In this document: piece by piece, positions 10,441 to 15,827 of the stretch
Position numbering within the stretch: the stretch's first letter is position 1
Layout of the letters: every line of letters starts with the position of its first letter
NCBI GenBank assembly: GCA_963204915.1
Contig: CAUJHS010000061.1
Location: 124,001 to 188,000 of the forward strand
Length of the DNA: 64,000 nucleotides
Direction: 5' to 3'
DNA from: Planctomycetota bacterium
Lineage (GTDB): Bacteria; Planctomycetota; Planctomycetia; Pirellulales; Pirellulaceae
Notes under the pieces: generated by a model
Databases searched by the model: none
Seen by the model: only the letters and a program-made list of their open reading frames with translations
What the model was told of the DNA's origin: nothing
Made by a program: the position numbers and the translations under genes

Positions 10441-13400
10441 TTACAACGCCACGTCCTCTTGGAACACGGAATCAACCGCTGCGTTGAATTCCTCGTCATC
10501 GGTCAAAACTGCGTCTGCGACCTCGTGCACGGGATTCGTTGTATCGCCGCGAGCCATTTCATCGATGACAACGTCAACCGCTTGCGCCATTTCCGGACTG
10601 ACCGTTCGGCGTGAAGTCTCCTCCGTCACACTCGACGAAACGTCCGCCGTGTACAGGAAGTCGAGCATCGAGAACTCATGGCTCGATGCGACCCACTGCG
10701 TGCTCGCGGCGGAATCCTCGGCTTCCCCTTCCGCCTCACCTTCGGCGTTGGTCGACTGGGATTGCGTCGTGGTCGTGACTGGCTGGAAATTAAAGGAATT
10801 TCGGTTGCCGGCAAAACGCAGAAGCGCACTGGTCGAGCCCGAATTGAGCACTTCGAATTGAGTAACGTTTTGAGCGGAGAAGTCGTCTCCGTCGCTCTCT
10901 TCGATACGGAGCGTCGCGATCATGGTCGTGGGATTTACGTTCGCATTGAAGTCGCTAACGCCCTCCCATCCGCTTTCCACGATGAAGAATTCGGAATCCC
11001 CGGTCGCGCCCGCGGCGATAAGCACCGAATCGCCCGGTTTGTAGTACATGAAGTCCAAAATACTGAGCGACGTCGCAGCTCGCATTTCCGCGAAGTTATA
11101 ACCCGTACCTTGCGCGCCTTCGGTCAATGGAACGGTGAACTGATCATTCGCGGACGCTTGCCCTCCGAGCGATCCTACCGTTTCCGGTCCATCGGTAAGT
11201 AGGCTGGACTGTGGTTGTCGAATGGTATACGTGCCAGGAGCCAGGTTGTCGAACTTGTACGAACCATCGGCCGCGGTTGTGGCTGTGCGTTCACTCACGG
11301 CGGCGCCGGTCGAGGTGGTTCCCGTCAACCGGACGACCAAACCACCGACGCCTCCCTCACCCGCGTCTTTTTGTCCGTTACTGTTCGGGTCCAGGAACAC
11401 AAATCCACCGACGCTACCCGGTTGGAATTCTGCGATGTTCACGGTCGCTGTGGCCGTGACCGATTGGTTGTCCTGGTCGGCAATGGTGATCGAGAAGGTT
11501 TCAATTCCGGTGACGTTAGCCGCTGGCGTATAGAAGAAGCCGGTTCCGTTGTTGCCGACTTCGACCGTACCGCCGCGGCTCGGGTTCGCCACGGCGGTCA
11601 CCCGGAAGGTTTGTCCCGCGCCATCAGGGTCAGTAATGGCGTTGGAGAAGCTCGATAGCGCATAGAACGTCCGCGGCGCGTTTCGCGAACTATTGACTGT
11701 CAAATTTTGCACCACGGGTGCGTCCGGCTGCGCCGCCACATTGATCGTCACCGTCGCCACGTTCGCCGATTGAATGGCGTTATCGCTGGCCCGGTACGTG
11801 AACGAATCTGTGCCGTTGAAATTGGCGGCCGGCGTATAGGTAAATGAGCCATTCGCCGCATTGAATTGGAGCGTGCCATGTTGCGGTTGCGTCACGAGCA
11901 ATCCGATGAGCGTATCACCGTCGGCGTCGGTGTCGTTCTTGAGTACACCGTCCGCCACGCTCACGGTCAATGTCGTGTCTTCTACCGCGGAGTACGTGTC
12001 GTTGACCGCCACGGGAGCGTTGTTCGTCACATTGATCGTGACCGTCGCAACGTTACTTTCCTGCGAACCGCTGACTGCCTTGTAGGTAAACGAATCCGCA
12101 CCTTGGAAACTGGCGTTCGGCGAATAGGTGAACGAACCGTCGGAGTTCAGCGTCAACGTGCCGTTCTGCACGTTCGACACGAGCTGCGCCGTGAGAGGGT
12201 CGCCAAGCTCGTTATTCGGGTCATCATTGGCCAACACGCCATTGGCGGCGTTCACATTAAGCGTTGTTCCCAGCTTGGTTGAGTATTGATCGCTGCGTCC
12301 CGGCCCGCTGATCACGTTCAACGTGACGGCTTGATCAACCGAGTTACCTGCGGCGTCCCGTGCACGAATGCTAAATGCCTGCTGCCCCGTTTGGGTAGAC
12401 GACGGAGTCCAGGTAACTTCACCCGTGGTCTGATTGATCGATAAGCCAGTCGGCGGATTCACCAACGAATAGAACACCCCCGGGCTGCCTTCTTCCGGGT
12501 TTTGTGCATTGTAAGTGAAGGGCGTTCCCACCGAGGCTTCGGTCGGCGGCGTCGAGCTAAAGGCCGGCGGCGCCGTGCGGTCAATCGTGACCGCCAAGGC
12601 GGACGTTGGATCGCTTTGAGCGCCGTCCACAACTTGCCGCGCGGTAATCTGCTTTACGCCCTCGGTCAGCAAGTTGGTGTTGGTTACGGTCACGGTGGCG
12701 CTCGTGCTTGTCGCCGTCGCCGTGCCGGCTAATTGATTGCCAACAAACACCTGCACCGTGGCTCCGCTCGTCACTCCGTTGACTTGGAATTGAAGCGAGG
12801 CGGCGTTTGTAATGTTGTCATCGTTGGCAATGCCCGTGTCGGAAGCCGCCACGAGATCGACCGACGTCGGCGCGGACGGTTTGACTTGGATTTGCACTAA
12901 TTGGGAGTCAAACGTGTCGCCAGTGTCTGACGAGGTCTGCGGCCGCGCCGTAACAAGCAACTCAAGCGTTCCCACGAAATTATTGGGCGGTGTCACATTC
13001 ACCGCTCCTGTGGTGGGATTCACCGTGAAGTCAAACGTGGGCGTAGCGCCCTGCGGAATGGACCCTCCGTAGGTAATCGCGTCGCCTTCGACGTCGTTCC
13101 CCTGCAATTGGAAGCTCACAGGCGTATTCATCGCCGTGGCGACCGTGGGAATGTCGCTCAGGAACGGGCCGCCATTGAACGTGTCGGCCTGAACGGTCAC
13201 ATTGAACGACCGAGTGGTCGTTTTGCCCTGCATATCGGTCGCGGTGACCGTCACCGTGGCGGTTCCCGTCGTGCCCGGAGCCGCCTTGAGTCGCAAAACG
13301 CCGTTTTCTTCATCGGTGAAAACATCGACCGAGGTCATGCGGACCGTATTCGTTGGCCGATCCTGCGCGCCGGTCGCCGTTTCACTAATCGCTTCCCGAA

Positions 13401-15225
13401 CGTCATCGCCTTCGACAATGAAGCCAAACACCGAGTGGTTGAAATCCAAGGCCCGCAACTGCCGCGGGTTATTGGGATTGGCTTCCGTAATGAAGAACTG
13501 TGAACTATTCGTGTCGTCGCCCGCTTTGGCCATCGACAGGATGCCCGACTGCGTATGCTGCAAATCGAAGTGGAACTGGTCGTCAAAGTCAGCCAAGTTG
13601 GGATCGCCAAAGCCGGTTCCGGTGGGGTCGCCGCCCTGAATCACAAAGTTGTCGATCACGCGGTGGAAGATCACGCCATCGTAAATGTTCGCTTGAGCCA
13701 ATTCCGCAATCGCATTGGTTACACGCGGCACTTCGTTATCAAAAAGCCGGAAGACCATATCTTCATAGCCTTCCATGTTGACCCGCATGCTGCGTGTTTG
13801 CGGCAATACGTTCGCCGTTACGCCCGAGGCGCCCGTGACTTGAACCGTATAAGTGATCTTCTGCCCATTGGGGTCGTAACCGTCGAGGGCCACATGCAAC
13901 GGAGCGCCGGCCAGCAGCGTCACGTTGGAGATCGGTGCGAGAAACGGCGCATCACCCGTCGGGATGGCCACGCCGCTACGTGTCGACAGTTCTTCCAACG
14001 TCAAAACGCCGGTAGCGCGCGTACCGTCAGGAAACTCCCAAGTGGGAAAGGTGGTGATATTGTTTTGCTGACCGATCGTGTTCAACGAGCGATCCGGATT
14101 TGTCACCTCGATGAAAGGCAAAAACTGCTCGCCATCCTCAAAGAGCTGTTTTTGCTCCGTGCAGAAGGGGCACCACGCGGCGCCGTAAAACTTAACGCCA
14201 GCCGCCGTCAACGCTTGGGCAAAGGCGACTTTGTCCGTCGACGTTACCGCGGCGACATTGACGGTGGCCGTCGCCGTAGCTGTGGAGCCGCCGCTTGTGA
14301 CGGTATACGTGAACGTCTCAGCGCCTGAGAAATTCGCGGCTGGGGTATAAATCACCCGCGTGCCGTCTTGGCTGATCGTCACCGTTCCGCCGTTGCTCGT
14401 CTGCCCGACCGCCGTAATCGTCGGTTTGCTTGTACTTGTAACTTGGACCGAGTCGCTTTGGAACAGAATTTGACTATTGGGAATCGGATTCGCCGCACCT
14501 GCCCCTTCTTCGAGCACCAGCGTCTCGTGACCGATTCCTTCGGGGGCGTTCGGGGTGAAGGTCAGCGTTCCGCCCAGCGAGTCGTTCGCGAGAACGTTCA
14601 GCTCGTTGTTCGACGAACCGGTCGCGACTGCCAACGTATCGTTGACGGCTTGAGGCGTCAGACTGTTCGACGTGACGGTAAACGGCGCCGAGAAAAACAG
14701 AACTTCCTGCGGCCCAAGCGGACTGGGCAAACCCGAAGTTCCAAACGACTGAGTTGAACCCACTTCGTTCAAGCGGCCTGTTTCAACGGTTCCGTCGTCC
14801 GGAAGAACTTGAAACTGTGGACTGAACGTGATCGGCCCGACAAACGTCGCCAGCGCCGCGGTGAAGTCCACATCGAGGTATCCGGAGAATACGCCGCGAT
14901 CGTCTTCGCTGTTGTTGGTATCTGGGTCCTGAGTCCGCAGGTCTTGCACGTAAACCTGCAAGGTCACAGTGCTGCCTGCCGTAACACTGGTTAACTCATT
15001 GCCGCTGGAATCGACAATGGCGGCCCGATAGCGCACGAGTTCGCCTTCCCCCTCGCCCACAAGGGTGGTCTGCGACGCAAAGAGTGCATCGGCGGCGAAC
15101 ATTTCGCGGCCCTCCAGCATCTCTAAGCAATGCTGACGAAATAACTTAGGACGCACGCGAGCTCTGCCCCAACGCGAGAGCCAGCGAGAAAACCCGGTGA
15201 TTTTGCGGCGCGAATGCTTCTTCAT
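10441..15225 (-). CDS. Giant secreted protein with thioredoxin-like and cyclophilin domains among cadherin-like repeats
   Basis: About 1594 residues, exported or surface-located. The N-terminus has a basic stretch and then LEMLEGREMFAADALFASQT, the LEPR-type motif (LExLExRxxxA) found at the start of many large planctomycete secreted proteins. Domains in order: beta-rich region (40-190); cadherin-like/VCBS segment from about 190 (AVNDTLAVATG); thioredoxin-like domain at about 330-420 with WCPFC (Cys352, Cys355) and a TTFPTWEFPDG cis-Pro-like region; cyclophilin peptidyl-prolyl isomerase at about 475-633 with GVIFHRVIDNFVIQGGDP, SMAKAG, SQFFIT and NHSVFGFI; Ig/cadherin-like repeats including two good tandem-95 units (about 975-1190); an SdrD-B-like domain (VGGFVFLDPNSNGQKDAGEG, about 1275-1360); and an acidic C-terminus. 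The start at ATG 15223-15225 (MKKHSRRK) is one of several and lacks a Shine-Dalgarno. Role: probably an outer-surface or matrix protein with folding-catalyst domains; the function is inference. Confidence 0.85.
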   Translation of the reverse strand: MKKHSRRKITGFSRWLSRWGRARVRPKLFRQHCLEMLEGREMFAADALFASQTTLVGEGEGELVRYRAAIVDSSGNELTSVTAGSTVTLQVYVQDLRTQDPDTNNSEDDRGVFSGYLDVDFTAALATFVGPITFSPQFQVLPDDGTVETGRLNEVGSTQSFGTSGLPSPLGPQEVLFFSAPFTVTSNSLTPQAVNDTLAVATGSSNNELNVLANDSLGGTLTFTPNAPEGIGHETLVLEEGAGAANPIPNSQILFQSDSVQVTSTSKPTITAVGQTSNGGTVTISQDGTRVIYTPAANFSGAETFTYTVTSGGSTATATATVNVAAVTSTDKVAFAQALTAAGVKFYGAAWCPFCTEQKQLFEDGEQFLPFIEVTNPDRSLNTIGQQNNITTFPTWEFPDGTRATGVLTLEELSTRSGVAIPTGDAPFLAPISNVTLLAGAPLHVALDGYDPNGQKITYTVQVTGASGVTANVLPQTRSMRVNMEGYEDMVFRLFDNEVPRVTNAIAELAQANIYDGVIFHRVIDNFVIQGGDPTGTGFGDPNLADFDDQFHFDLQHTQSGILSMAKAGDDTNSSQFFITEANPNNPRQLRALDFNHSVFGFIVEGDDVREAISETATGAQDRPTNTVRMTSVDVFTDEENGVLRLKAAPGTTGTATVTVTATDMQGKTTTRSFNVTVQADTFNGGPFLSDIPTVATAMNTPVSFQLQGNDVEGDAITYGGSIPQGATPTFDFTVNPTTGAVNVTPPNNFVGTLELLVTARPQTSSDTGDTFDSQLVQIQVKPSAPTSVDLVAASDTGIANDDNITNAASLQFQVNGVTSGATVQVFVGNQLAGTATATSTSATVTVTNTNLLTEGVKQITARQVVDGAQSDPTSALAVTIDRTAPPAFSSTPPTEASVGTPFTYNAQNPEEGSPGVFYSLVNPPTGLSINQTTGEVTWTPSSTQTGQQAFSIRARDAAGNSVDQAVTLNVISGPGRSDQYSTKLGTTLNVNAANGVLANDDPNNELGDPLTAQLVSNVQNGTLTLNSDGSFTYSPNASFQGADSFTYKAVSGSQESNVATVTINVTNNAPVAVNDTYSAVEDTTLTVSVADGVLKNDTDADGDTLIGLLVTQPQHGTLQFNAANGSFTYTPAANFNGTDSFTYRASDNAIQSANVATVTINVAAQPDAPVVQNLTVNSSRNAPRTFYALSSFSNAITDPDGAGQTFRVTAVANPSRGGTVEVGNNGTGFFYTPAANVTGIETFSITIADQDNQSVTATATVNIAEFQPGSVGGFVFLDPNSNGQKDAGEGGVGGLVVRLTGTTSTGAAVSERTATTAADGSYKFDNLAPGTYTIRQPQSSLLTDGPETVGSLGGQASANDQFTVPLTEGAQGTGYNFAEMRAATSLSILDFMYYKPGDSVLIAAGATGDSEFFIVESGWEGVSDFNANVNPTTMIATLRIEESDGDDFSAQNVTQFEVLNSGSTSALLRFAGNRNSFNFQPVTTTTQSQSTNAEGEAEGEAEDSAASTQWVASSHEFSMLDFLYTADVSSSVTEETSRRTVSPEMAQAVDVVIDEMARGDTTNPVHEVADAVLTDDEEFNAAVDSVFQEDVAL

Positions 15226-15827
15226 CGGTAAATCGTGCAAAGTCCAAGAATGAGAAACGCCCATTAGCAACGCATGCCACCTAAGGACGGAGTAGATGTC
15301 CTTTTGTCACACGCCCCCCAACCTGCGGAGATAAACGATCCTGAGCGACAATCGACTAGGAAAGCTAGGAAAAGTTCGTTGAAACACTCTTCGCAGATGT
15401 GGCGCCAATGCAACCCTAGTTGCCTTAGATGCACCTCGACGACGAAAAGTTGCATCGCAGAAACTGCCGGTTTTGTTCGCCATCATCCCGATTCGTTATA
15501 TTTTACCTTGCTGTGATATCCCATGAACAAGGTTTTCTTTAGGGATAACTGACGTTAGTTGCTTTCTCACAACAGGTTGCGTCCTACAACCAACTTTTTC
15601 CGTTCTCTCCGCACGGTGTCAGGAAATGCAAGGTCGATGCCCGTAGAGGTTTCATCGTCAAACTTTTGCGTGGAACTCGCATGCGTTCCCCGGCGAAGGT
15701 GGAGAAGTTGCCGGTTTTACCACCGGTAGCGGCAGCAGTACGCTATCCAATGGGTGGTATCTGATTTAACTATAAAAATAAAATGCGTAAACAAACCGGC
15801 TATTGAGGTTGTAAAGTTCGGCAGCCC
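15226..15827. other. Intergenic stretch upstream of the giant gene
   Basis: About 600 bp with no convincing coding region. It should hold the promoter and leader of the giant secreted gene. A weak candidate on the minus strand is TTGTTC (plus 15525-15530) and TAAAAT (plus 15500-15505) with a long 19-base spacer. An AT-rich patch at 15764-15785 (TTAACTATAAAAATAAAATG) lies just past the rRNA methyltransferase stop and reads as a T-rich run on the minus strand, but I found no good stem before it. Confidence 0.4.

Follow-up and report, generated by a model that had tools for sequence, protein, structure and literature searches.

Results

A single long gene on the minus strand

The window, the whole stretch of 64,000 nucleotides that was analysed here, carries on its minus strand the gene whose features are listed in Table 1. 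It forms one frame of 1594 residues, as the original prediction had claimed, and the motifs quoted there were each found once (LEMLEGREMF at residue 34, WCPFC at 351-355, TTFPTWEF at 391, FHR at 520, QGGDP at 530, SQFFIT at 575 and HSVFG at 597). A TTG codon upstream, at 15270, is an alternative start and would give a version of 1609 amino acids. The label 'giant' that the protein had been given is a relative term, since the gene spans 10441-15225, whereas a 'giant gene' in the planctomycete literature is one of more than 15 kb (PMC7717043). A terminator-like hairpin with a T run (tail TTTTCTTGTT) lies 3' of the stop codon; across the region such hairpins were found at 9 sites with 8.3 expected, a frequency at chance level. 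The possibility of a conserved gene neighbourhood was rejected, as the window neighbours were missing at 39 other loci and gave only weak matches to a common epimerase family.

Table 1. Position of the gene, its domains and motifs in the window
Feature	Residues	Position	Strand	Evidence
Whole gene, thioredoxin-cyclophilin-cadherin repeat protein	1594 aa + stop	10441..15225	-	open reading frame
Planctomycete extracellular (LEPR-type) motif	32-46	15088..15132	-	PF07595
Lineage-specific N-terminal insert	47-330	14236..15087	-	missing from most homologues
Thioredoxin-like domain, VKOR/LTO1 type	331-422	13960..14235	-	family profile vs 3kp8 + model
WCPFC active-site motif	351-355	14161..14175	-	sequence, conservation
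Presumed cis-proline (TFPTW)	394	14044..14046	-	Pro in 40/40 homologues
Ig/cadherin-like domain, first half	426-475	13801..13950	-	strands 435-438, 443-447, 458-465, 469-473; pLDDT 88-97
Cyclophilin domain inside Ig-like domain	476-637	13315..13800	-	PF00160, structure alignments
Ig/cadherin-like domain, second half	638-682	13180..13314	-	strands 642-648, 654-663, 669-679
Cadherin/Big_9/He_PIG/tandem-95 repeat stalk	690-1260	11446..13158	-	Pfam, NCBIfam
SdrD B-like domain	1271-1352	11170..11415	-	PF17210 E 7e-15
C-terminal region, weakly conserved	1353-1594	10444..11169	-	family alignment
Terminator-like hairpin + T run, 3' of stop codon		10382..10406	-	11 pairs

Judged by its sequence, the protein is probably secreted. 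The LEPR-type motif that had been noted at its N terminus corresponds to the planctomycete extracellular motif PF07595, which may direct the export. In the window protein the match stayed below the cut-off of 25.5 bits (E 0.15, 12.3 bits), and in the homologue L042 it was above it (E 2.6e-8, 33.6 bits). The motif is discernible in most homologues with an available N terminus. When 31 long family members were aligned, the blocks of the insert that follows it had an occupancy of 0.05-0.35.

The CxxC motif lies in a thioredoxin-like domain

When the single sequence was scanned with Pfam, the thioredoxin remained below the cut-off (PF13098, E 0.14). A profile of 34 homologous segments, A1, matched the thioredoxin domain of VKOR (PDB 3kp8) with an E value of 1.2e-18, and its next-best family was that of the ordinary thioredoxins at about 1e-5. 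AlphaFold placed the secondary structure elements in the order beta-alpha-beta-alpha-beta-beta-alpha that is expected for the fold, with WCPFC at the beginning of the active-site helix and Pro394 immediately before the next strand. The pLDDT of the blocks of this domain was 74-93, with a lower value of 62 for the loop that follows the CxxC helix. Homology, the CxxC at the helix start and the proline at the cis-Pro position place the domain among the VKOR/LTO1 thioredoxin-like domains. The assignment is based on the sequence profile together with the secondary structure of the model and is confirmed at that level, and the predicted CxxC domain, weak in Pfam, was borne out. A second thioredoxin domain of the VKOR type was searched for in the same genome and not found at E <= 1.

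The confidence of the first AlphaFold model was low in the cyclophilin because the alignment was shallow, and a deeper alignment raised it. In the second model, comprising the thioredoxin, cyclophilin and Ig parts (365 residues, mean pLDDT 89.5, pTM 0.78), the two folds were well modelled next to each other and WCPFC was located inside the thioredoxin fold.

A cyclophilin predicted to be nested in an Ig-like domain

The cyclophilin matched PF00160 at residues 481-635 with an E value of 2.9e-34. The fold and the equivalents of the catalytic Arg55, Phe60, Gln63, Phe113 and His126 are all present, so the main active-site residues are intact, as had been predicted; the equivalent of the human Trp121 is an alanine here and often a histidine or phenylalanine in the homologues. 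The structure searches with both models were dominated by cyclophilin matches. The highest score of the first model in VIA-align was obtained with 3jb9_d (Z 17.4, rmsd 2.7, 139 aligned), and cyclophilins were among the Foldseek matches of the second model. AlphaFold predicted strands with high confidence on either side of the cyclophilin, and in the homologues the segment following it matched just the C-terminal half of Ig/cadherin profiles. Because of these modelled strands and half-profile matches, we infer that the cyclophilin is inserted into one single Ig-like domain.

Two side observations concern cyclophilins elsewhere. In genus g4 (L241, L242) the domain has an insertion of more than 100 residues between SQFFIT and LDFNHS. 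The genome of the window also contains two tandem cyclophilin genes (L003, L004) with frames of 468 and 431 amino acids and N termini that look secreted.

The repeat stalk and the C terminus

The cadherin-like repeats of the original prediction were found by Pfam as well as NCBIfam, the types matched being Big_9, Cadherin_5, Cadherin_4, SdrD_B and tandem-95. With 174.5 bits against a cut-off of 90, the protein belongs to the tandem-95 repeat family NF012211. The label VCBS, also used for the repeats, was matched with a weak fit (TIGR01965, E 9e-4).

The C termini of some homologues differ in content. A matrixin-like metallopeptidase motif (HExxHxxGxxH) was observed in L213, L219 and L061 (Peptidase_M10, E 9.5e-6 to 0.0035), and L219, a member of genus g167, also showed a cohesin-like match. 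Two shorter second copies (L056:9464-13381 and L240:518-4432) have a type I dockerin domain at the C terminus.

The module is conserved in the family

The module of 356 residues was matched at E <= 1e-60 in about 155 of the 241 family genomes by our own count, and many of the matches sit in open frames approximately 1,600 residues long. Conservation of this kind throughout the family shows that the arrangement is not due to chance. It was also found in some other families of the order and in genus g167, which belongs to a different family of the same class; outside the class, no VKOR-type thioredoxin domain was found in a sample of the phylum. Ig-cyclophilin modules without a thioredoxin are frequent in Planctomycetia. 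Because such thioredoxin-less relatives are common, the module appears to have the nested cyclophilin as its core, with the thioredoxin as an addition.

A search across genomes, which had been proposed with the prediction, thus showed that many planctomycetes conserve the two domains side by side, in most cases together with the catalytic residues. The domain order had not been recognised as a described architecture, and our literature search, which was incomplete in coverage and does not establish an absence, found neither a description of the thioredoxin-cyclophilin-repeat order nor one with a different function.

The cysteines are kept or absent as a pair

Among 40 proteins, the CxxC was present in 38 and Pro394 in all; the Arg, Phe, Gln and Phe of the cyclophilin were found in 40/40 and the His in 38/40. 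The window protein is one of 31 long family members, and in 30 of these the CxxC pair provides the only cysteines beyond residue 80 of the frame; L069, with six, is the lone exception. Any thiol partner would therefore be another protein, and no disulfide of its own is left for the protein to repair.

A larger set of 84 proteins was partly chosen for CxxC-less relatives and includes second copies. Both positions were filled in 81 of them; one row without a thioredoxin, L249, is truncated by a contig end. Both cysteines were present in 54/81 and neither in 27/81, a proportion that is no frequency given the choice of the set, and a single cysteine was never seen. On a quick maximum-likelihood tree, computed with the trait columns excluded, the CxxC state changed 9 times, and 8 of the changes are forced by well-supported branches. 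The count does not distinguish gain from loss; as the CxxC is present in the related VKOR domains, we interpret the changes as losses.

All 54 CxxC-bearing proteins have an intact cyclophilin core (R, F, Q, F), and in the 31 long family members this core is more strongly conserved than the remainder of the protein. It was broken in 12/84 proteins, all without the CxxC, namely 11 of 13 in genus g167 and the second copy L240; the alignment of such eroded cyclophilins is less certain. The 13 g167 genomes that were analysed all lack the CxxC and retain a full-length homologue of about 1,560 residues. This pattern suggests that constraint on the cyclophilin is relaxed only in proteins that lack the redox pair, but the sign test for coupled erosion, with only 1-2 informative independent pairs, was not significant.

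Possible redox partners

Neither VKOR (PF07884) nor, by Pfam, DsbA was found in the genome of the window, which has one DsbD-type protein. VKOR was considered as a partner and rejected: it was not found here and scored above the cut-off in 61 of the 149 genomes of the family, and is therefore not required. Where family members have a VKOR, it is often in a protein of about 500 residues that can be read as VKOR plus a DsbA-like domain. VKOR proteins of this kind from other Pirellulaceae (L196-L201, about 470-560 residues) resemble fusions of VKOR with a DsbA-type thioredoxin, and profile A1 found no match when searched against them.

Discussion

The best explanation, to which we give a probability of about 0.5, is a planctomycete cell-surface or envelope protein with a built-in foldase head. 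After export, the cadherin/Ig repeats would serve as a stalk. The Ig-inserted cyclophilin near the N terminus would isomerise prolyl bonds of adjacent envelope proteins and, in most family members, the VKOR-type thioredoxin domain alongside would exchange disulfides with the neighbouring ones. Both domains would then be catalytic and act on other proteins, with a disulfide-linked protein wall as the presumed substrate; the planctomycete wall has been reported to be a disulfide-bonded protein sacculus (PMC2754498) and to include cysteine-rich YTV proteins (PMC8567305). The original prediction had proposed a tethered folding station or a self-maintaining matrix. The domains are real, adjacent and conserved, and a foldase that acts on neighbours fits them, but self-maintenance by disulfide exchange does not, as there are no cysteines besides the CxxC beyond the N-terminal motif.

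The foldase reading is weakened by the repeated absence of the CxxC, by the eroding cyclophilin of g167 in a protein that still has about 1,560 amino acids, by the unconserved neighbour genes, and by a genome in which neither VKOR nor, by Pfam, DsbA was found as a source of oxidising power, only one DsbD-type protein. With 8-9 changes of the CxxC, common thioredoxin-less relatives and the eroding g167 homologue, a strict need for both enzymes is doubtful. Alternatively, the protein could be a mainly structural adhesin or matrix protein, in which the thioredoxin and cyclophilin are binding modules with catalytic residues of little importance. Repeats make up most of the protein, the CxxC state switches 8-9 times on the tree, and g167 keeps the full length with the CxxC gone in 13/13 and the cyclophilin core eroded in 11/13. 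We consider this somewhat unlikely, since R, F, Q and F are intact in 54/54 CxxC-bearing proteins, above the conservation of the rest.

The CxxC could also be no enzyme but either a thiol pair for cross-linking or anchoring, forming mixed disulfides between the stalk and cysteine-rich wall proteins, or a surface redox switch. It is the sole cysteine pair beyond the N-terminal motif and is absent as a pair, and VKOR and DsbA, its possible re-oxidants, were not found in the genome. However, the motif opens the active-site helix of a thioredoxin fold with a conserved proline, like that of redox-active thioredoxins, and the residues between the two cysteines vary as in redox-tuned motifs, and we hold a cross-link, anchor or switch to be unlikely. 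Chance motif matches within a repeat protein, for which the Pfam result below the cut-off for the thioredoxin could speak, are refuted by the profile and the model; the family-wide conservation also argues against them, and their probability is close to nil.

A protein conserved in many Pirellulaceae that joins prolyl-isomerase and thiol-exchange domains on one surface stalk makes it possible to test how a bacterium folds a protein-based, disulfide-linked envelope outside its cytoplasm, and the natural variants without one or both sites are ready comparisons. Sequence and models suggest that folding helpers may be built into the planctomycete surface. A further-reaching proposal, which we hold to be unlikely, is that foldase heads in the wall fold and maintain the disulfide-linked wall extracellularly and that the thioredoxin and cyclophilin activities are functionally coupled, with erosion of the cyclophilin setting in only once the redox pair is gone.

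Several known systems resemble parts of the protein. Cyclophilin-type PPIases (PF00160; PpiA/PpiB and human PPIL1) have the same fold and the catalytic Arg, Phe, Gln, Phe and His, whereas the cyclophilin of the window protein sits inside an Ig-like domain. Tandem-95/cadherin-like surface proteins of planctomycetes likewise combine a repeat stalk with an N-terminal extracellular motif; in contrast to them, the window protein bears enzyme-type domains near its N terminus. For the VKOR-DsbA-type proteins of Pirellulaceae (L196-L201), a similar role in disulfide exchange is plausible in the same bacterial family. The VKOR-thioredoxin fusions (Synechococcus VKOR, PDB 3kp8/3kp9, and plant LTO1) share the thioredoxin sequence profile, the WCxxC, a mostly aromatic residue ahead of the presumed cis-Pro and the TW that follows it. 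They have the four-helix VKOR membrane domain, whereas the window protein is without PF07884 and has its thioredoxin fused to a cyclophilin and repeats instead.
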